Shown here in pieces: positions 7,884 through 25,404 of a DNA stretch of 64,000 nt (position 1 is its first letter; every line of letters begins with the position of its first letter). A program made the position numbers and the translations under genes. The stretch is from Faecalicoccus pleomorphus DSM 20574 (GTDB lineage Bacteria > Bacillota_I > Bacilli_A > Erysipelotrichales > Erysipelotrichaceae): positions 1 through 64,000 of the forward strand of contig NZ_ATUT01000004.1 of assembly GCF_000420345.1 (NCBI RefSeq), read 5' to 3'. Under the pieces are notes generated by a model that did no database searches, was not told where the DNA came from, and saw only the letters and a list, made by a program, of their open reading frames with translations.

Positions 7884-7892
7884 TGATAAAAT
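7884..7892 (+). promoter_or_regulatory. Extended -10 element directly before the start codon
   Basis: TGA followed by TAAAAT (7887-7892) ends 7 bases before the ATG at 7900, and no SD motif is present. Transcription would begin at or next to the A of the start codon, giving a leaderless mRNA. Confidence 0.55.
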
Positions 7893-7899
7893 AGAAACC

Positions 7900-10404
7900 A
7901 TGAAACAAGTAACCGTAGGTATTTTAGCCCATGTCGATGCCGGAAAAACCACCAGTATCGAAAGTATGTTGTATATAGCCGGAAAGCTGAAAAAGACCGG
8001 GCGTGTCGATCATCAAGATGCATTTTTAGACTACGATTCCCAGGAAAGAGAGCGTGGGATCACGATCTATTCCAAGCAGGCCTTTTTCCACTATAAAGAT
8101 ACTGATATCACCATTATAGATACACCCGGCCATATTGATTTTTCCAGTGAAATGGAGCGTTCTTTACAAGTGTTAGATCTGGCCGTATTGTTGATCAACG
8201 GGCAAGATGGAGTACAATCCCATACCAAAACCATCTGGGAATGTTTAGAACACTATCATGTTCCTGTTTTGATCTTTGTCAATAAGATGGATATATCCTA
8301 TCAATCTCAAGCTGATCTATTACAAGATCTACAGACGCATTTATCCTCGAATATCATTGATATGACATTAGATGATGCCCAAGAACAAATCTCTTTATGT
8401 GATGAAGCGCTATTGAATGAGTATTTAGAGAACAACACATTATCCAAAGACAGCTTACAAATCAGCTTTGCCAAACGAACATTTTTTCCGGTTCTTTTCG
8501 GAAGCGCCTTAAAAAATGAAGGCATCGATGTATTAATGGATACGATCATTGATTTATCTCTGGAAAAAGAATATCCAGATGAATTTGGTGCCCGCGTCTT
8601 TAAGATCACAAAAGATGAACAGGGAAATCGTTTAACCCACATCAAGATCACCGGAGGAAGCCTAAAGCCAAAACAAATGATTACAGAAACAGAAAAGGTC
8701 GATCAGATTCGATTGTACAATGGTCAAAGCTATCAGCTGCTTACACAAGCACATGCCGGTATGATCGTCAGCTTAAAAGGAATAGAAAATCTTTCTATTG
8801 GCCAGGGACTTGGTTTTGAAAAAGACAGTCTTGCCCCTTCTCTATCTGCCTATTTAAATTATCGTCTTTTGTTGCCGCCGGATAAAAAACCGATTGAAAT
8901 GATGCCGGTCTGTGATCAACTGATGAAAGAAGATCCCAGTCTTGAAATCGAATATAATGAAAATACCCATCAGATTTCTTTACGCCTGATGGGCGAAATA
9001 CAAATGGAGATCCTCCAAAAGAGGATTCAGGAACGCAGTGGTGTAACTGTCGGATTTGGTTTGGATCATGTACTCTATAAAGAAACCATTGCCGATAGTG
9101 TCATAGGTATGGGGCACTTTGAGCCTTTGCGTCATTATGCCGAGGTTCATGTACGACTTGATCCATTACCTCGAGGAAAAGGGTTGCAGTTTGAAAACGA
9201 AGTCAAAAGCGATGATTTAGCTTTAAACTGGCAAAGATTGATCCTAGGCCATCTACAGGAAAAAGTACATCGAGGGGTGTTGACCGGTTCACCAATCACC
9301 GACATGAAAATCACACTGATTGCCGGCAAAAGTCATTTAAAGCATACCGAAGGCGGTGACTTTCGACAAGCCACATATCGCGCTGTACGCCAGGGATTAA
9401 AAATGGCACAGTCCATCCTGCTAGAGCCGTATTATCGATTTATATTGACTTTACCATCGGAGCGTTTAAGTAAAGCTCTCTATGATTTAGATCTAAGAAA
9501 GGCAAAGGTAGAAATCAAAGAAGTCGGTTCACAACAGATGGAAATCACAGGGATTGCCCCGGTACGTACCATGATGAACTATCAAAATGAAGTCATTGCC
9601 TACACAAAAGGACTAGGAAAATTCAGTTGCGCACTCGATGGCTATTATCCTAGTGAAGAACAGGATAAAATCGTTGAGGAAATTGGATATGACAGCGAAT
9701 CCGATCTCAGAAATCCAACCGGATCTGTTTTCTGTGCCCATGGTTCCGGTTTCTATGTTCCTTATGATGAAGTCCAGGAATATATGCATATTCAAACCAA
9801 GAATCAAAACACTTCCTCTTATCAGGCAGTTAAGCATACAGTCAAAGAAGAGGAACTGAAGAAAGTCTTCAACAGTCTTGGTGGGCGAAATAAAAAAGAA
9901 GAAAAGAAACCGAGAAAGCCTAAAAAGAAAATTGATTTTGATACACAGCCAAAAGAAGTTGTGCAAAGAAAAGAAGACTGCTTGATCATTGACGGCTATA
10001 ACATGATCTACAGCTGGGACAATTTAAAACCTTTGGCTGCTCATAATATCGAATCGGCTCGTGATGCCCTGATCGATGCGATTTCTAATTATCAAGGCTA
10101 TCGACAAATTAAGATCTTGTTGGTGTTTGATGGATATCGGGTTCCTAATAATTATGGTTCATCTTATCGACAGGGTGGATTGGATGTCATCTATACAAGA
10201 ACCGGACAAAGTGCCGATCAGTACATTGAAAGAAAGGTTCATGAGCTAAAGGATAAATATCGCATCACGGTCGCAACCAGTGATGGCTTGATTCAAAATT
10301 CCATCTTAGCGAACGGAGCTCGTCGTATGTCCAGCAAAGAACTGGAAAACCAGGCATTATCGATCAACAAAAAAGCATTGCATCATCTGCAGCAGAATCA
10401 CTAA
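7900..10404 (+). CDS. Tet(M)/EF-G-like translation GTPase fused to a Rae1/YacP-like NYN nuclease domain
   Basis: 834 residues. The N-terminal GTPase has AHVDAGKT (10-17), RGITI (52-56), DTPGH (74-78) and NKMD (128-131), followed by EF-G-like domains including HTEGGDFRQATYRA in the domain IV region, as in ribosomal protection proteins. A lysine-rich linker near 665-690 leads to a C-terminal NYN/PIN-like domain (694-822) with acidic residues D698 (in IIDGYN), D744 (VFDGY), D773 and D795 (TSDG). The domain resembles Bacillus Rae1 (YacP), a ribosome A-site mRNA endonuclease. Inference: the fusion delivers a nuclease to the ribosome or couples rescue to mRNA cleavage. Tetracycline resistance is not implied. 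No SD; probably leaderless. Confidence 0.88.
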   Translation: MKQVTVGILAHVDAGKTTSIESMLYIAGKLKKTGRVDHQDAFLDYDSQERERGITIYSKQAFFHYKDTDITIIDTPGHIDFSSEMERSLQVLDLAVLLINGQDGVQSHTKTIWECLEHYHVPVLIFVNKMDISYQSQADLLQDLQTHLSSNIIDMTLDDAQEQISLCDEALLNEYLENNTLSKDSLQISFAKRTFFPVLFGSALKNEGIDVLMDTIIDLSLEKEYPDEFGARVFKITKDEQGNRLTHIKITGGSLKPKQMITETEKVDQIRLYNGQSYQLLTQAHAGMIVSLKGIENLSIGQGLGFEKDSLAPSLSAYLNYRLLLPPDKKPIEMMPVCDQLMKEDPSLEIEYNENTHQISLRLMGEIQMEILQKRIQERSGVTVGFGLDHVLYKETIADSVIGMGHFEPLRHYAEVHVRLDPLPRGKGLQFENEVKSDDLALNWQRLILGHLQEKVHRGVLTGSPITDMKITLIAGKSHLKHTEGGDFRQATYRAVRQGLKMAQSILLEPYYRFILTLPSERLSKALYDLDLRKAKVEIKEVGSQQMEITGIAPVRTMMNYQNEVIAYTKGLGKFSCALDGYYPSEEQDKIVEEIGYDSESDLRNPTGSVFCAHGSGFYVPYDEVQEYMHIQTKNQNTSSYQAVKHTVKEEELKKVFNSLGGRNKKEEKKPRKPKKKIDFDTQPKEVVQRKEDCLIIDGYNMIYSWDNLKPLAAHNIESARDALIDAISNYQGYRQIKILLVFDGYRVPNNYGSSYRQGGLDVIYTRTGQSADQYIERKVHELKDKYRITVATSDGLIQNSILANGARRMSSKELENQALSINKKALHHLQQNH

Positions 10405-14478: not shown

Positions 14479-16188
14479 TTATGATTGTCTTCTTTTTAGC
14501 ACAACTAGAATGCCAGCTGATAAAACCGATACAACACCTGCCACACTCGCTAGCTTTGCCCCAAACGAAGTTGCGGTGTTTGTGCCTTTGGCTTTATCCG
14601 TGTTTTTATGCGATGCAGGTTTTTGTGCTAAAGAAGATTCTTCTTTCTGATCTGATTCCTGATTATTTTGTTTATCTTGAACAGTTACCGTAATGGTCTT
14701 AGAAGCACTGGCCCCTTGAGAATCCGTTACCGAATAGGTCAATTGGTATTTGCCGGCTTTTCCCGGTTCAATGCTGCCTGATACCACCACTTTATCAGTA
14801 AGATTTCCATCTTCTGCATCCGTGGCTGATACACCATTCATTGGATCAAAACAATCTCCTACTTGCATAGTGACATCCTGGACATGGAGCACAGGAACCG
14901 TATTCGTGATCAAAGAAGGTTTAGTAAAGGCAGTATAAGAAATTTTTGCCTTGTCTAATGTTTGTTGTGTTTTTGATCCTGCCTGCACATAGATTGTATC
15001 GATGCCTTTTAACGCATTGGTTCCTACATACGTGATGTTGTTTGGAAGTGTGATTTCTGTTAATTGATTACAACTGTTAAAGGCATTTGGACATAAACTT
15101 GTCAGACTTTGTGGCAGTTTTACACGGACTAAATTGTGACATGTATTAAAAGCTTCTCTTCCAATGGAAGTTACACCATCGGGTATTGTAATTTCTTCCA
15201 TGGCCGTTCCATAGAAGGCTCGTGCCCCAATTGTCTTTAAAGTGCCTGGTAATGTGATTTTTGAAAGATTATCATTGCCATTGAACGCATAATCACCAAT
15301 CTTTACTACGCCTTCAGGAATCACAACACTGGTCATTTCATCATTGGACCAGAAGCTATAACTACCGATTTCTGTGACTGGTTTTTGAGCAATTGTAGAT
15401 GGAATGACAAGATCTTTATCATCGCCTCGATAATCGGTAATCGTTACATTTCCCTGATTGACAGTATAAACGTAATCCCCTTCCACTCCCTCTACATGAA
15501 TTGTACAAGTCGCAAAGGCCGGAGCATCTTGCCCTTCATTCTTTCCAACACTGGTTGCCGTGATGATAGCCGTTCCTTCATTCACAGCTGTCACTAAGCC
15601 ATTTTCATCAACCGTGGCAACAGCATCGTTGTCTGTTGTCCAAATGAGATCTGTATTGGTTGCATCTCCGGAATACGAATTTAAACGCAACTGAAATGTA
15701 TCCCCCTGTACCAATTCTTTTTCATCTTCATTCAGTCCAATACTGATAGGATAGACTTCCGGATCTATTTCCTGGTAATTGTATTTTGTTCCAATTGCTT
15801 CGATTGTTGTCGATCCTTTATTCACTTTAAGCTGAATCGATCTTTCAAAGCTGGTAGAAGTTAAACTGGTAATATTGTCGGGTAATGTGAGTGTCGTTAA
15901 CGCATCGCAATCGGCAAAAGCATTTGAACCGATTTTATATAAAGACTGTGGTAAATCAACAGTACTTAAACTTGTACAATTATTAAATGCATCATTGGCA
16001 ATTTCTTTTACACCTTCCGGCAATGTGATAGAAGATAAACTCGTGCAATACGCAAAGGCCCCTTGTGAGATAACCGAGATGTTACCGGATATACTCACCT
16101 GTCTTAAAGAACGATTGGCCCGAAACGCATTCTTTCCTATCGAAGTGACACTGGAAGGAATCACTACAGAGGTTAACTTTTTACTCAT
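14479..16188 (-). CDS. BspA-like leucine-rich repeat surface protein, C-terminal part of a frameshifted gene
   Basis: 569 codons from an internal ATG. Two blocks of LRR_5/BspA repeats (signature AFxxCxxLxxIxLP) flank a Big_2 bacterial Ig-like domain near residues 150-230. A DUF5011-type Ig-like domain (near 440-510), a low-complexity linker and a C-terminal transmembrane segment with KRRQS tail follow. No LPXTG motif is visible before the membrane segment. The reading frame is open upstream to the end of the neighbouring 16212-17084 gene, and the sequence continues that protein after a one-base shift, so this is the 3' half of one gene and unlikely to have its own start: the ATG has no SD. 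Probable role: host or matrix adhesion. Confidence 0.8.
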   Translation of the reverse strand: MSKKLTSVVIPSSVTSIGKNAFRANRSLRQVSISGNISVISQGAFAYCTSLSSITLPEGVKEIANDAFNNCTSLSTVDLPQSLYKIGSNAFADCDALTTLTLPDNITSLTSTSFERSIQLKVNKGSTTIEAIGTKYNYQEIDPEVYPISIGLNEDEKELVQGDTFQLRLNSYSGDATNTDLIWTTDNDAVATVDENGLVTAVNEGTAIITATSVGKNEGQDAPAFATCTIHVEGVEGDYVYTVNQGNVTITDYRGDDKDLVIPSTIAQKPVTEIGSYSFWSNDEMTSVVIPEGVVKIGDYAFNGNDNLSKITLPGTLKTIGARAFYGTAMEEITIPDGVTSIGREAFNTCHNLVRVKLPQSLTSLCPNAFNSCNQLTEITLPNNITYVGTNALKGIDTIYVQAGSKTQQTLDKAKISYTAFTKPSLITNTVPVLHVQDVTMQVGDCFDPMNGVSATDAEDGNLTDKVVVSGSIEPGKAGKYQLTYSVTDSQGASASKTITVTVQDKQNNQESDQKEESSLAQKPASHKNTDKAKGTNTATSFGAKLASVAGVVSVLSAGILVVLKRRQS

Positions 16189-17323: not shown

Positions 17324-20300
17324 TTATTCTGCACTTAATGTTGAATCGGATTCATGAATATCGATTGATTCCACATCCAGACTTGCATCCCCAAGAATGC
17401 TTTCTGCCTCAGCGGCATCTTCATGCAGGCTTGCTTCTTCATCTAAAGAATTTGCCCCTACGATCTTATCGAATTCTTCATCTTCATTTTCGTGCATACG
17501 AGCTAAACGTTTATCACGCAGCTCTTTTGCCTTTTCTTTAACCAGTTCATTTTGAGGTCGATTACCGGTACATCCCGTTCCTGCCGGAATCAGTTTACCG
17601 ATAATAACGTTTTCCTTCAAACCGATCAAATGATCGACTTTACCTTTGATTGTCGCATCGGTAAGTACTTTTGTCGTTTCCTGGAAACTTGCCGCAGAAA
17701 GGAAAGAATCCGTTTCTACCGAAGCCTTGGAAATACCTAACAATACCGGTTTAAACTGTGCCGGTGTTTTTCCTGTCAACAACGCATCACGGTTGATCTT
17801 AGTGATGTTGTTCAAGGATAACTGCACACCTACATTCAAGTCGGTATCACCACTGTCGGTTACGATGACACGTTTCATCATCTGTTTAATCATAACTTCC
17901 AGGTGCTTATCGGAAATTTCGATACCCTGAGACTGGTAAACCTTCTTAACTTCCTTCAAAATGTAGTCTTGTACTTCACGTACACCGGCTACACGAAGCA
18001 GTTCTTTTGGATCTAATGGTCCTTCTGTCAAAGCTGTACCGGCTTCGATATGTTCACCGACCTGTACCCACGGACGCATGGTCTGGTTGGCATTGATCTT
18101 GTGTGAAATGCTTTCGCTTTCACTGGTAATGATAACCTCCTGACGCATTGTACCTTCAATACGTTCAATTGAAGTAATCTCACCGCTGATCTGGGCAATG
18201 ACCGCTACCCCTTTTGGACAACGGGCTTCAAACAACTCCTCAACACGAGGCAAACCTTGTGTGATATCCCCGGTTCCGGAACCGGCAACACCACCGGTAT
18301 GGAATGTACGCATGGTCAGCTGTGTACCTGGCTCACCGATACTTTGTGCCGCCATGATACCAATAGCTTCACCCACTTCAACATCTTTTCCGGTTGCCAT
18401 GTTACGTCCGTAACACTTACGACATACACCGGAACGAGATTTACAAGTAAATACTGAACGGATATACATACCTTCGATACCTGTATCGACGATACGTTTT
18501 GCCAATTCTTCGGTAATGAACTCATCACTGGCAATGATCAGTTCGCCTGTTTTTGGATCGGTCACATCTTGTTTTGAGTAACGTCCGATCAAACGATCCA
18601 TCAATGGTTCGATCACTGTATTGTTCTTGCGATCGACTAATGCTTCTACCCAATAACCGCGGTCAGTTCCACAGTCGTCTTCTTTGATGATAACATCCTG
18701 GGCAACGTCAACCAAACGACGAGTCAGATATCCAGATTCGGCTGTTTTCAAGGCGGTATCGGTCAAACCTTTACGCACACCATGTGTACTGGTAAAGAAT
18801 TCGGATACGTTCAATCCTTCACGGAAACAAGAGTAGATCGGTACCTCGATAATAGAGGATACATATTCGCCCCCGCTGGATTTACCATGACCCGGTTTAG
18901 CCATCAATCCACGCATACCGGCCAACTGTGTAAAGTTAGAACGGTTACCACGGGCACCGGAACGAGCCATCATGTTGATTGGGTTTTTACGAGGCAGATT
19001 GGCTAACAATTCGTCGGCAATCTCATCCTTTACATTTTCCCAAAGTTTATTCAAATGGCGTTCCCATTCTTCCATCGTCAACATACCTTTTTTCTGCAGA
19101 CGTTTTAATTCTTCGGCTTTATTACGACCATATTCGACATGCTCTTCTTTATTTGGTGCTACCTCGATATCACTTAAAGATACCGTAATACCCGCAACTG
19201 TCGAATATTTAAATCCCATGGATTTGATCTGGTCCAGAATTTCAGCTGTTTGATCAACAGAATAACGGTTGAAGACTTCGGCAATAACTTTTCCTAAATC
19301 TTTTTTCTTTACAGCCGGTGTGATTTCTAAATTTGCGATGTATTTCTTCACATCCATGCCCGGCTGTACAAAATATTTATCCGGTGTTTTTTCAAAGTTT
19401 TCCTTTGAGACTTCATTCAAATATGGGAAGTCTTCCGGGAACATTGAGTTAAAGATCAATTTTCCGACCGTTGTCACTAAATAATCATTTTCATGAATCA
19501 GATCGAAGCTTGTTTTCTTTAAGCCACGTACCGGTAAAGCAATACGTGAATGCAGATGTACCTGTCCAGTCTGATAGGCCATCATCACTTCTTTTTCATC
19601 TAAGTAAACATGTCCTTCATTAGCAGCATATGTTCTCCATTGCGCGGCTTCTTTTGGACAGTCTTTGTCTTCATAACGCTGGGCTTCTTCTTCCAACTCT
19701 TGTTTGGTTTCTTCCATGGTTAGATAGAAGTTACCCATAACCATATCCTGCCCTGGAGTAACGATTGGTTTACCATCCTTAGGACCTAAGATATTATGGC
19801 TTCCTAACATCATAACCAGGGCTTCCGCACGAGCTTCTTCACTCAATGGTACGTGAATGGCCATCTGGTCACCGTCAAAGTCGGCATTGAAGGCTGTACA
19901 TACTAATGGGTGCAAACGCATAGCACGTCCTTCAACCAGTTTTGGCAAGAAGGCCTGAATACCTAAGCGGTGCAATGTCGGCGCACGGTTCATCAATACT
20001 GGATAGCCATCAATAACCTTTTCCACGACATCCCACATCTTAGGATCACGGCGTTCAATCAGTTTTTCCGCATTTTTAGGATTTGCAGCTAAACCCTGGT
20101 TCACGATTTCATTGATGATGAATGGTTTAAACAGGTTGACTGCCATTTCACGTGGAATACCACACTGATACATCTTCAGATCCGGTCCAACGGCGATAAC
20201 ACTTCGTCCAGAGAAGTCAACACGTTTTCCTAACAAGTTCTGACGGAAACGGCCCTGTTTACCCTTTAAGGAATGAGACAGAGATTTCAAGGCACGTCCA

Positions 20301-21226
20301 CCGGCACCGGTAATCGGTTTGGAACGACGTCCGTTATCAATCAGCGCATCCACTGCTTCCTGTAACATACGTTTTTCGTTTTGAACGATAATGTTTGGTG
20401 TTCCTAAATCCAACAGCTTACGCAGACGGTTGTTTCGCGTAATGACACGACGATATAAATCGTTTAGATCGCTGGTTGCGAAACGTCCACCATCCAGCTG
20501 CAACATAGGACGCAGATCCGGTGGTATTACCGGAATATTGGTCAGGATCATCCATTCCGGTTCGTTTTCACTTTGACGGAACGCATTGATCGTATCCAAA
20601 CGTTTGATCAACTTTTTACGTTTTTCACCCTGGGCTTTATCCAAAGCTTCCTGTACGTTCTGATATTCTTCTTCCAGATCAACATCCTGTAACAAACGAA
20701 GTACGGCTTCGGCTCCGGTCTGTGCCGTAAAAGCCTGACTTCCGTAAATCGCGATATTTTCACGATATTCTCTTTCCGAAAGAATTTGTTTATAGGCTAA
20801 GTCCGTATCCTTTGGATCAGTTACGATATAGCTGACAAAATATACAACTTCTTCCAACTGTTTTGGTGTCACATCCAACAACAAAGCCATACGGCTGGGG
20901 ATTCCACGCAAGTACCAGATATGAGCCACAGGTGCTGCTAAATGAATGTGTCCCATACGTTCACGACGAACGCTGGCCTTTGTGATTTCTACCCCACAAC
21001 GGTCGCAGACAACACCCTTAAAGCGCACTTTTTTATATTTTCCACAGGCACATTCCCAGTCCTTGGTTGGACCGAAAATGCGCTCGCAGTATAAACCGTC
21101 ACGTTCTGCTTTTTGTGAACGGTAGTTGATTGTTTCCGGTTTCGTAACTTCACCATGCGACCACTTTAAAATGGTTTCCGGCGAAGCTAAACGTACCTGA
21201 ATTGAGGCAAAATTATTGATTGACAT
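17324..21226 (-). CDS. rpoC: DNA-directed RNA polymerase subunit beta'
   Basis: 1300 residues, normal for a Bacillota beta' without large insertions. The N-terminal zinc-binding cysteines are in the CACGKYKKV and CDRCGVE blocks (about 60-80). The catalytic NADFDGD is at 447-453, and the second zinc site is near [11 protein letters not shown] (about residue 900). The C-terminus is an acidic tail. Only 3 bases separate it from the rpoB stop. With rpoB it forms the catalytic centre of RNA polymerase. Confidence 0.98.
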
Positions 21227-21229
21227 GTA

Positions 21230-24200
21230 TTACTCAGCCTCCTCTTCTTCTATTTCATCGGTATTTTCTTCTTCCATATCGTTGACAAGTTCTTCTTTTG
21301 GAAGCGGTTGATGTGCTACTGGCACATCATCGTCATCATCCGGGTTCAGATCAACTTCATTGTTGTTTTCATCCAACAGACGAACATCGATAGCCAAACC
21401 TTGCAGCTCGTGTACCAATACACGGAAAGATTCAGGAACACCCGGTTCCGGAATGTCCTTACCTTTGATGATGGCTTCATATGTCTTGATACGTCCCTGA
21501 ATATCATCGGATTTGATTGTTAAGATTTCCTGCAGTGTATGTGCAGCCCCATAAGCTTCCAAAGCCCAAACTTCCATCTCTCCGAAACGCTGACCACCAT
21601 TTTGTGCTTTACCACCTAACGGCTGCTGCGTTACTAGTGAATATGGCCCTGTAGCACGGGCATGCAGCTTGTCGTCAACCATGTGTGCCAGCTTGATCAT
21701 ATACATGACACCGACACTGATTCGTTCATCAAATGGCTGACCGGTCTGTCCGTCATACAATACTTGTTTACCATCGCTTGTCATCTGTGCTTCTTTCATG
21801 ATGTCGGCCAATTCTTCATTGGATACACCATCGAATACCGGTGTGGCAAATTTGACACCAAGCTTTTTAGCGGCATAGCCTAAATGGATTTCCAAAATCT
21901 GTCCAATGTTCATACGTGATGGCACACCAAATGGGTTCAAAATAATATCAATTGGCGTTCCATCAGCCGTAAATGGCATATCCTCGATCGGAAGGATCTT
22001 AGAGATAACACCCTTGTTTCCATGTCGTCCAGACATCTTATCCCCTTCAGAGATCTTACGTTTCTGAACAATATAGACTTTCACACGCATATTCACTCCC
22101 GGTGGAAGTTCGGATCCATCACCGCGTTTAAAGACACGGATAGAATGCACGATACCGGCTCCACCATGAGGAACCTTCAAAGAGTTGTCACGAACTTCAC
22201 GTGATTTCTCACCAAAAATAGCCAATAACAGTTTTTCTTCCGGTGATACTTCACTCTGTCCTTTCGGCGTTACCTTACCAACTAAGATATCGCCCTCTTT
22301 TACTTCGGCACCGACCATGATAATTCCGTTTTCATCCAACTTACGAACCGCACTTTCACCCACGTTTGGAATATCACGGGTAATTTCTTCCGGTCCTAAC
22401 TTTGTATCACGGCAGTCAATATCGTATTCTTCAATATGAATGGATGTATAAACATCATCGCTGACCATACGTTCAGACATGATAATGGCATCCTCGTAGT
22501 TATAACCATACCAGGTCATGTAGGCAATCGTTACGTTTTGTCCTAAGGCCAATTCACCGTTTTCCATCGAAGGACCATCGGCTAAAATATCGCCTTTTTC
22601 TACTTTTTCACCAACTTCTACGATTGGACGCTGGTTGATGCAGGTAGAAGCATTGCTTCGGGCAAATTTACGCAACTGATAGGTATGTTCTTTATGATCT
22701 TCCGTTTCCACAACAATGCGAAGACTATCGACATACTTAATGGTTCCATCTTCCTTGGCAACGATTCCGACACCGGAGTCTTTGGCAATCTTGTGTTCGA
22801 TTCCAGTTCCGACATATGGTGAATGCGGCTGCAACAAAGGTACGGCCTGACGCTGCATGTTGGCACCCATCAGGGCACGGGAAGCATCGTCATTTTCCAG
22901 GAATGGGATACAAGCTGTGGCTACCGATACGATCTGTTTTGGACTAACGTCAGCCAGTTCTACATCCTCACGATTGGCAATGATCGTTTCCCCACCTTTA
23001 CGCACAACGACATGTTCATTGATCAAACGACCATCACGAACCTCGTTGGCCTGGGCAATCAGGTAATCACTTTCTTCATCGGCGCTTAAATACACCGCTT
23101 CTTCCTGTACGGTACCATCTTTATTGACAATACGATATGGTGTCTGAATGAATCCATATTCGTTGATCTTAGCATACGATGTCAAGTTGGAAATCAAACC
23201 AATGTTTGGACCTTCTGGGGTTTCGATTGGACAAATACGACCATAGTGAGAAGTATGAACATCTCGAACCTCGAAACCGGCACGATCACGTGTCAAACCA
23301 CCAGGTCCTAAGGCAGAAATACGACGTTTGTTTGTCAATTCAGCCAATGGGTTCTGCTGGTCCATGAACTGTGAAAGCTGTGAACTCGAGAAGAATTCCT
23401 TGATAGCCGCTGTTAACGGACGAATGTTTGTCAGCTTTCTTGGTGTCAGGTTCTCCAATTCCTGAATGGACATACGCTCTTTGACAACACGTTCCATACG
23501 AGATAGACCGATACGGAACTGGTTTTGGATCAGTTCACCAACTGAACGAATACGACGGTTTCCCAACATATCGATATCATCGGTCGTACCTACACCTTCC
23601 ATAACATTCATATTATAAGAGAAGAAGGCATACATATCCGACATAGTGATCGTGTGCTTATTGGCCAATGGATCATTTCCGCAGATCTTGATTTCATCGC
23701 CTTCTTTATCGATGACATAGACTTCCTGTACACAGGCACCGATCAACCATGCGGTGATTTCTTCCTGGTTGGCACGAATACGCAAGGCCTTCACAACATC
23801 CTCTTCCAGAGTATCCGGCTCTACACCTACGGTATAGCGTGGTGCTACTAATTCCATCTGCGCATCCACAATATCCTGTCCTTTGGCATTGGTCAAACGA
23901 CCCAAAGCATATAAACGCTGTCCATAGTTAAATACAGACTCACTGTTTTCAGCTGTCAAAACAACCGGGCGAGCGATCAATCCACCGTAAACGGCAATTT
24001 CTTCCACTTCCTGCAGTTCTTTAACATCTTGTGCGGTCAGTACAGTTCCCTGTTCGTAATATACGCCATCCACTTCTACATCTTTCGCCAGAATTCGTCC
24101 GATCAAGCCACTGTTATAGCTTGTTGGAACGCTGACGATGTCTTCTTCATGGAATTCAGAACGGAACGGATAAGGCGTACAATATGGTCCTTTGGCAAGC

Positions 24201-25324
24201 TGTTCACGTAGTGCATTTCGCTGGTCACGATGAATCACCGTACCCTTTTCCATAAACACATTGCCATCGACATCCACGATATCATGCGCAAGCGTTGTAC
24301 CATCCATTCGAGCAATCGCATTCAATTTTTTACGCAGCTTATAACGTCCGGCTTTTGTCAGATCATAACGACGATGATCAAAGAACTTTGCCTGCATTAA
24401 CGTAATGGAACCATTTAACGTAGGAATTTCATCACTTCTCTGGTTTTCATAGAAAGACAATAAAGCTTCCTGTGTCGTCTTCACTTTGTCATTCAACAAT
24501 GTGTTTTCAATTTCTTCATATTTTCCAAAGAACGCCGTATATAACAACAAATACAAGTTCATGTATTCACGATTTTCCGGATCTGTTGCGACTTCATCCC
24601 AGTTTCTTCCCATGGCCTTTAAGAAGATTTCCATCTGTGTTGTATCTGTTGTATTTTCATTCACTTCCAGATTCAAAGACATACCGATTGCTTTAAAAAG
24701 GATCGTAAATAAAATCTTACGGCGACGGTCGATTGATACATTGATTGTTCTTCCGTTTGATGTCTTCTTTTGTTCAGTCATGAATTCCAGCCAAGTTCCA
24801 CGACTTGGAATCAATTCACAAGCATAGTTTTGTTTTCCGGTTTTTTCATCGTAACTTTCCGAGAAATAAGCCCCCGGACTACGCACGATCTGCGAAACGA
24901 TAACACGTTCCGCTCCATTGATGATAAATGTTCCGGTTTCCGTCATTAACGGGAAGTCACCTAAATAAACTTCTTCGTTTTTCGTAACAACTTCTCCGGT
25001 GTCCGTATCAGTAATTTCCAGTTCCATTTCCGCATACAAAGGTGCTGCATAATTGCACTCTCTGTACATGGATTCTTCCGCATTATATTTTGGCTGTGCA
25101 AAATGATAGCGAAGAAAGTTCAATTTGATATTTTTTCCGTAGTTTTCAATCGGATAAATTTCTTCGAATACTTCCTGAATTCCCTGTCTGGTAAACCATT
25201 TAAATGAATTGGTCTGAATCTCAACAAGGTTAGGTAATTCCAGTTTTCCACTTACTTTGGAATAATCTCGACGTGTTGCTTTTTTGCCACATTCGAGGAT
25301 GTGATACGCTTTGTTTGTGTCCAT
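21230..25324 (-). CDS. rpoB: DNA-directed RNA polymerase subunit beta
   Basis: 1364 residues. Typical beta blocks include the rifampicin-region [20 protein letters not shown] (starting near residue 510), [18 protein letters not shown] and the C-terminal region with [19 protein letters not shown]. An acidic tail rich in D and E ends the protein. The second in-frame ATG (25322-25324) is chosen: GAAAGG lies 9 bases upstream of it but directly abuts the first ATG. No ribosomal protein genes (rplJ, rplL) precede it; it has its own promoter at 25405-25433, and a GNAT gene on the same strand lies upstream. Confidence 0.98.
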
Positions 25325-25404
25325 GCATGCCATCCTTTCGTTGATTTTTGTCTTGCGTCGTAGCTAAAGGCGCACTACCCCCTTAGACTATTATGCAATT
25401 TATT

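Follow-up and report, generated by a model that had tools for sequence, protein, structure and literature searches.

What might a translational GTPase and an mRNA nuclease do when they are joined in one protein? The question is raised by an open reading frame (ORF) of 834 amino acids that runs from ATG through stop on the forward strand of a 64-kb stretch of Faecalicoccus pleomorphus DNA, hereafter the window. The NYN domain at its C-terminus is related to Rae1 (YacP); few other nucleases of bacteria are linked to the A site of the ribosome. Rae1 is described as a ribosomal A-site endoribonuclease, and in Bacillus subtilis its gene adjoins yacO/rlmB, with which it is co-transcribed (PMC6613710). 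In 2015, a single sentence of one paper mentioned Tet proteins of ten Clostridiales that carry a YacP-like NYN domain, as maybe a new resistance mechanism (Atkinson, PMC4342817). A sequence-only reading of the window had considered that the fusion might already be annotated or characterised: the architecture had indeed been reported, as Tet, and no functional study was found in the literature covered, where PMC4342817 alone mentions the fusion (subscription journals lie outside this coverage).

Domain layout, predicted fold and GTPase family

ORF, Pfam and fold analyses agree with the sequence-only description of a single 834-residue frame with GTPase motifs, an EF-G-like body and a C-terminal Rae1/YacP-like NYN domain (Table 1). 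Pfam recovered all EF-G domains in order, followed by NYN_YacP, each above its curated cut-off; the NYN_YacP match (residues 695-832) reached E 6e-43 and 147 bits against a cut-off of 24.6. The G domain contains the P-loop AHVDAGKTT, the switch motif RGITI with T55, DTPGH with H78, NKMD and GSA. With these motifs and domains G, II, III, IV and V, the protein belongs to the translational GTPase superfamily. Domain IV is the part of EF-G and TetM that enters the A site. An assembly artefact or a chance ORF was ruled out, since the same fusion is found in hundreds of contigs and genomes.

Table 1. Features of the fusion gene and its start region, in nucleotide positions of the window.
Feature	Residues	Position	Strand	Basis
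TAAAAT, -10-like hexamer, 7 nt before ATG		7887..7892	+	sequence
Fusion gene, translational GTPase and Rae1-type NYN endoribonuclease	834 aa	7900..10404	+	ORF, Pfam, model
G domain	3-218	7906..8553	+	Pfam GTP_EFTU, E 3e-51
EF-G domain II	229-302	8584..8805	+	Pfam EF-G_D2
EF-G domain III	339-386	8914..9057	+	Pfam EFG_III
EF-G domain IV	391-504	9070..9411	+	Pfam EFG_IV, fold match
Domain-IV tip loop KHTEGGD, family-specific	481-487	9340..9360	+	alignment with TetM, TetO, EF-G
EF-G domain V	507-588	9418..9663	+	Pfam EFG_C
C-terminal extension, conserved, TetM-like position	589-632	9664..9795	+	alignment with TetM/TetO/EF-G; blastp end points
Disordered linker	633-693	9796..9978	+	low pLDDT
Linker motif EEELKKVF, short predicted helix	650-657	9847..9870	+	pattern count, model
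NYN_YacP/Rae1 domain	694-834	9979..10401	+	Pfam, Rae1-structure profile, fold
First catalytic-type aspartate (DGYN), Rae1 D7	D698	9991..9993	+	109/109 fusions
Aspartate (VFD), Rae1 D53	D744	10129..10131	+	109/109 fusions
Aspartate (AD), Rae1 D81	D773	10216..10218	+	109/109 fusions
Aspartate (SD), Rae1 D104	D795	10282..10284	+	109/109 fusions

An AlphaFold2 model of the full fusion, built with 24 homologues in the alignment, had a mean pLDDT of 84.8. Its GTPase body, the first 600-627 residues or so, matches EF-G with Z 40 and TetM, up to residue 627, with Z 32. In the linker, pLDDT falls below 50 at residues 635-649 and 657-688, on either side of a helix at 650-660. GTPase matches fill the fold-search list of the full-length model, so that Rae1 does not appear there, and the NYN domain was therefore folded separately. 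Predicted alone (pLDDT 91), it matches B. subtilis Rae1 (5MQ9) with Z 20.7, rmsd 1.7 A and 36% identity over 133 aligned residues, and the second-best match has a Z of only 9.0. The two Rae1 entries were also the sole matches in a profile search of the domain against structures (E 1e-41), and the Rae1 residue numbers in Table 1 are taken from this profile alignment. The NYN domain of the window ends at profile position 142 of 166 and is without the C-terminal segment of Rae1, which many clostridial fusions retain. The substitution R166P, in that segment, inactivates B. subtilis Rae1 (PMC6613710).

The GTPase is 28-31% identical to EF-G and Tet proteins. Its best NCBIfam match is tet_protect, with 402 bits against a curated cut-off of 775, and its EF-G score is likewise below the cut-off (294 against 659.4 bits). 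At the tip of domain IV the alignment places KHTEGGD where Tet proteins have SPVSTPAD and EF-G has HDVDSSE. In the GTPase tree, fused and unfused members form their own group, split from Tet and EF-G (100/99), within the limits set by long branches. Tet proteins form a separate group (100/99) with the fusion outside it. Because of the long branches (EF-G with Tet), we make no claim on the branching order of the three clades. As judged from scores, tip loop and tree, the fusion GTPase is a distinct clade, neither EF-G nor Tet. The family label 'Tet(M)-like' of the sequence-only reading is thus not supported. A true EF-G (1181 bits) is encoded elsewhere in the genome, as is a paralogue of EF-G2 type. 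It also encodes a separate 644-aa protein (C3:79566-81416; L248, L253) that is 68% identical to plasmid Tet(M), with SPVSTPAD intact, and is probably, from its sequence, a genuine tetracycline resistance gene.

Conservation and distribution of fused and free Rae1

If the nuclease were a relic, its active site should vary among homologues, and the acidic residues of the NYN domain had been singled out beforehand as the place where this would be seen. They do not vary. All 40 Erysipelotrichia fusions share the P-loop, T55, DTPGH with its catalytic-type histidine, NKxD and the four aspartates of the NYN domain, and the same GTPase motifs together with D698, D744, D773 and D795 are invariant in 109/109 fusions, Clostridia included. 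Residues D13, G15, K16, T17, T55, D74-H78, N128, K129, D131, G201 and A203 are the same in all of the 109-110 fusions compared, and the 40 fusions of the window's own class are 31-75% identical over most of their length. The tip loop is nearly as constant (D487 in 109/109 fusions, K481 in 108/109, T483 and H482 in 107/109). Because these residues are invariant in 109/109 fusions, the GTPase and nuclease parts are both under selection; with motifs and aspartates unvarying across the fusions, an inactive nuclease or an inactive GTPase is unlikely.

The linker is 58-140 aa long (median 70, 107 homologues). A loose EEL..IF-type motif, often followed by ..TYG, was found in 75/110 linkers, compared with a mean of 0.7 in shuffled sequences, and persists in the forms without domains IV and V that are described below. 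We can only guess that this conserved helix motif serves for docking, either to the ribosome or to the GTPase.

A profile search found one NYN_YacP domain in the F. pleomorphus genome, namely that of the fusion. A separate yacP gene, which the sequence-only reading had proposed to look for, is absent from the genome. In three overlapping samples, NYN_YacP was found in 58/96 genomes of the family, 29/296 of the class and, above cut-off, 39/392 of the phylum. By identical coordinates, G014 of the family sample is Catenisphaera adipataccumulans (G549) and G490 of the order is Longibaculum muris (G545), which places the window in the Erysipelotrichaceae of the NCBI taxonomy. In the phylum sample all NYN_YacP domains lie in frames of about 600-1100 aa, except one frame-broken copy; NYN_YacP is present there only as the fusion. 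Nearly all fusion frames have 820-930 aa, the exceptions being contig ends, the frame break of genome G077 and the short forms without domains IV and V. In G077 (L089 4943-7515) the frame breaks in the linker into ORFs of 712 and 160 aa, by sequencing error or natural fission. Every own-family genome with a clear GTPase also carries the NYN domain (53/53), with no GTPase-only remnant among them. The fusion gene is dispensable, because 38 of the 96 family genomes are without any NYN domain.

The fusion extends beyond this phylum. The best 80 relatives of the NYN domain in a collection of 84,980 species are almost all fused and belong mostly to Lachnospiraceae/Oscillospiraceae-type genomes. In Clostridia, NYN_YacP scored above cut-off in 188/291 genomes; in 84 of them it is a free protein of 160-217 aa, and in about 104 it is fused or lies on a fragment of a fusion that the contig end has cut. 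None of the 188 carries both. Independence would predict 30 such genomes, and the hypergeometric probability of finding none is about 1e-20, a value that ignores phylogeny and counts related genomes. The few second NYN matches in Clostridia are sub-threshold fragments or, in G694, two fusions, and G785 cannot be assigned clearly, as the frame of its GTPase continues past the contig end. Fused and free Rae1 thus exclude each other.

A mobile-element origin of the gene was considered and rejected: of the 1322 plasmid records that matched, no more than two reach a coverage of 80% of the query, the best of them a 518-kb Monoglobus replicon whose product is named only 'translation factor GTPase family protein'. 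Full-length, unannotated fusions are also present in two faecal 'Bacteriophage sp.' records (MT835563.1, 5421-7958; MT835514.1, 15276-17789).

Genomic locus, origin of the fusion and a natural deletion

The rlmB locus of F. pleomorphus reads cysS-mrnC-rlmB-sigma-factor-like gene (cysS, mrnC and sigma factor being named here from their translations), and only 26 nt separate rlmB from the sigma-factor-like gene at the place that rae1 occupies in B. subtilis. No yacP follows rlmB, and the fusion sits on contig C4 instead. Among free clostridial NYN genes, rlmB is next door in 17 of 22; the position after rlmB is treated here as the typical context of rae1, not as a strict definition. From the empty slot and the usual company of rlmB it follows that the free rae1 gene was lost in this lineage and that Rae1 is retained only on the GTPase. 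The neighbours of the fusion gene were tried as a functional clue and set aside: AzlCD, a PfkB-type kinase, a methyltransferase and GlgB are not conserved beyond the genus. Elsewhere in the window are a surface-type protein of 569 aa with leucine-rich repeats and a stretch resembling bacterial Ig domains (14479-16188) and two very large adjacent ORFs on the same strand, of 1300 and 1367 aa (17324-25333).

No Shine-Dalgarno (SD) sequence was found upstream of the fusion ATG (7887-7899). A TAnnnT hexamer ending 6-7 nt before the ATG is present in 10/15 homologues without SD (shuffled mean 1.2) and in 0/14 with SD; the upstream regions concerned are those of L066, L067, L068, L074, L076, L079, L084, L086 and L090. 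By this pattern, the fusion mRNA may be leaderless.

Unfused orthologues of the GTPase have 645-729 aa and are 35-43% identical to the fusion GTPase. Their blastp end points fall at query residues 630-638, the start of the linker. In the GTPase tree they form one group (99/90) beside the fused ones. Seventeen genomes carry an unfused GTPase; ten of them have a free Rae1 elsewhere and seven, from Clostridia, are without any NYN domain. The occurrence of the unfused GTPase beside free Rae1 in 10/17 genomes is a Rosetta-stone link between the two proteins. The GTPase can also work alone, because the seven other genomes have it with no NYN. The fused domains cluster together in the NYN tree (100/100), and their cluster includes a single free NYN, that of G804. 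G804 (L222, L264) has an unfused GTPase and a free NYN, which is not beside rlmB, and represents either a pre-fusion state or a later split. Judging by the two trees, a single origin of the fusion is compatible with the branching of both GTPase and NYN.

One genus, designated g3, provides a natural deletion. Two of its genomes (G005 and G094) encode fusions of 603-615 aa without domains IV, V and the C-terminal extension; after domain III come a stretch of about 20 aa, the linker motif and the NYN domain, with GTPase motifs and aspartates kept. The short-form loci are L069 (5846-7627, minus strand) and L276 (603-aa ORF, minus strand). A third g3 genome, G062, has the full-length fusion. The existence of these natural forms shows that domain IV is dispensable in this one genus. 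Their G-II-III plan is also that of RF3, which works without domains IV and V. From the deletion it would seem that what the protein cannot do without is its GTPase core and its nuclease.

Proposed function and comparison with known systems

We propose, with a probability of roughly 0.55, that the fusion is a replacement for Rae1 which is brought by its own GTPase to ribosomes that are stalled or have an empty A site, and which cuts mRNA there. A ribosome-linked, mRNA-cutting role is the best supported one because profile, fold and catalytic residues all identify the domain as a Rae1 and because it has replaced free Rae1. The proposal builds on the observed domain content, the conserved sites, the predicted Rae1 fold, the single NYN domain and the rae1 gene lost from the rlmB locus; it builds equally on the exclusion between fused and free forms, the distinct GTPase clade, the tree compatible with one origin and the fusion point after the C-terminal extension. 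From these we infer ribosome binding, A-site cleavage, coupling to GTP and the order of the steps. Counting against the proposal are the missing C-terminal segment of the window's NYN domain, the family genomes without any NYN, the Clostridia genomes that have the GTPase but no NYN, and the rivalry of domain IV and Rae1 for the A site.

In this view a flexible linker ties the Rae1 of this lineage to a distinct translational GTPase, which would handle recruitment to the ribosome. In its GTP form, the EF-G-shaped body would bind the factor site of ribosomes with an empty or blocked A site, where domain IV with its KHTEGGD tip might probe or clear the A site. The tethered NYN domain would then cut the mRNA at or close to the A site, either once domain IV has shifted or on an adjacent ribosome that has collided with the first, and the factor would leave upon hydrolysis of GTP. 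The sequence-only reading had the protein dock like an elongation factor and cleave the A-site mRNA, as a putative ribosome-rescue or stress nuclease. Cleavage of mRNA at the ribosome is the part of it that the Rae1 identity and the replacement of free Rae1 support best, whereas docking and cutting would call for two steps or for a tether: an EF-G-type domain IV would compete with Rae1 for A-site space, their simultaneous docking there is unlikely, and sequential action is the more plausible because they would share the site. Tentatively, and at somewhat less than even odds, the fusion could be a GTP-gated mRNA nuclease, in which the cycle of the translational GTPase decides on cutting, which displaced free Rae1 across the phylum and much of Clostridia, and whose nuclease came to stand in the place of domain IV in one genus.

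Coupling might also be absent. An EF-G-like factor and a free-acting Rae1 could be held together only to fix their stoichiometry, with cleavage outside the control of the GTPase, as the long disordered linker (58-140 aa), the seven genomes with an unfused GTPase and no NYN, and the ability of B. subtilis Rae1 to act without a fused GTPase would allow. We consider this rather unlikely, as the window's family shows no secondary fission, barring one frame break, and no GTPase-only remnant, and as the linker motif is retained far above chance, even in the forms without domains IV and V. Unlikely, too, and slightly more so, is a role in ribosome biogenesis or stable-RNA processing, in which the GTPase would check the interfaces of the subunits as they assemble, while precursors of rRNA or tRNA would be trimmed by the NYN domain. 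Such maturation was proposed earlier for NYN domains (quoted in PMC4342817), and PIN-like nucleases of the SSU processome and of RNase P are among the weak fold matches of the domain; yet Rae1, an A-site mRNA nuclease, is by far the closest in fold and profile, and absence from 38/96 family genomes would be unusual for an rRNA maturation enzyme. A protein giving resistance to tetracycline or another A-site antibiotic with an added RNase, as proposed in 2015, is very unlikely: the Tet classification in PMC4342817, the best match to tet_protect and the TetM-like length of the C-terminal extension are outweighed by the score far below the Tet cut-off, the replaced tip loop, the clade that excludes Tet and the separate Tet(M)-type gene with intact loop, and near-full-length plasmid matches are confined to the two records above.

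The fusion is the usual form of Rae1 in the window's lineage and in many Clostridia. A joined enzyme with both sites kept and free Rae1 dropped hints that, in many gut bacteria that are common, cleavage of the Rae1 type has a GTPase as partner or pathway, and the fusion is a ready construct for mutating nuclease and recruitment separately. Annotation is also affected, since fusions may be mistaken for tetracycline resistance genes although they are without the Tet loop.

The proteins noted by Atkinson in 2015 have the same architecture. They were labelled Tet, whereas here they fall in a separate GTPase clade that is far more widely distributed and replaces free Rae1. With the architecture itself known since 2015, what is new is that the GTPase is a family of its own, that the fusion has replaced free Rae1 and left the rlmB slot empty, that neither active site varies, and that a form lacking domains IV and V exists. 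Tet(M) and Tet(O) share the five EF-G-like domains and a short C-terminal extension with the fusion (31% identity) but belong to another clade, have the SPVSTPAD tip loop and are without NYN. EF-G agrees with the fusion in the order of its domains and in its GTPase motifs (Z 40), and its two domain-IV loops, GG.GQ.GHV and HDVDSSE, are both missing from the fusion. B. subtilis Rae1 (PDB 5MQ8, 5MQ9) shares the NYN fold and the four aspartates; it is a free protein of about 170 aa encoded beside rlmB, whereas the domain of the fusion sits on the C-terminus of a GTPase, at another genome site, and is without the last 24 or so profile positions. Other ribosome-associated systems that bring together a nuclease and an NTPase are Dom34/Hbs1 with Cue2 or NONU-1 and, in bacteria, MutS2 and SmrB; to our knowledge, none of them joins a GTPase of EF-G type and a Rae1 nuclease in one chain. 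Their proteins are unrelated to the fusion, and what all have in common is the idea that cleavage of mRNA on stalled ribosomes is coupled to a factor that is an NTPase or a GTPase.
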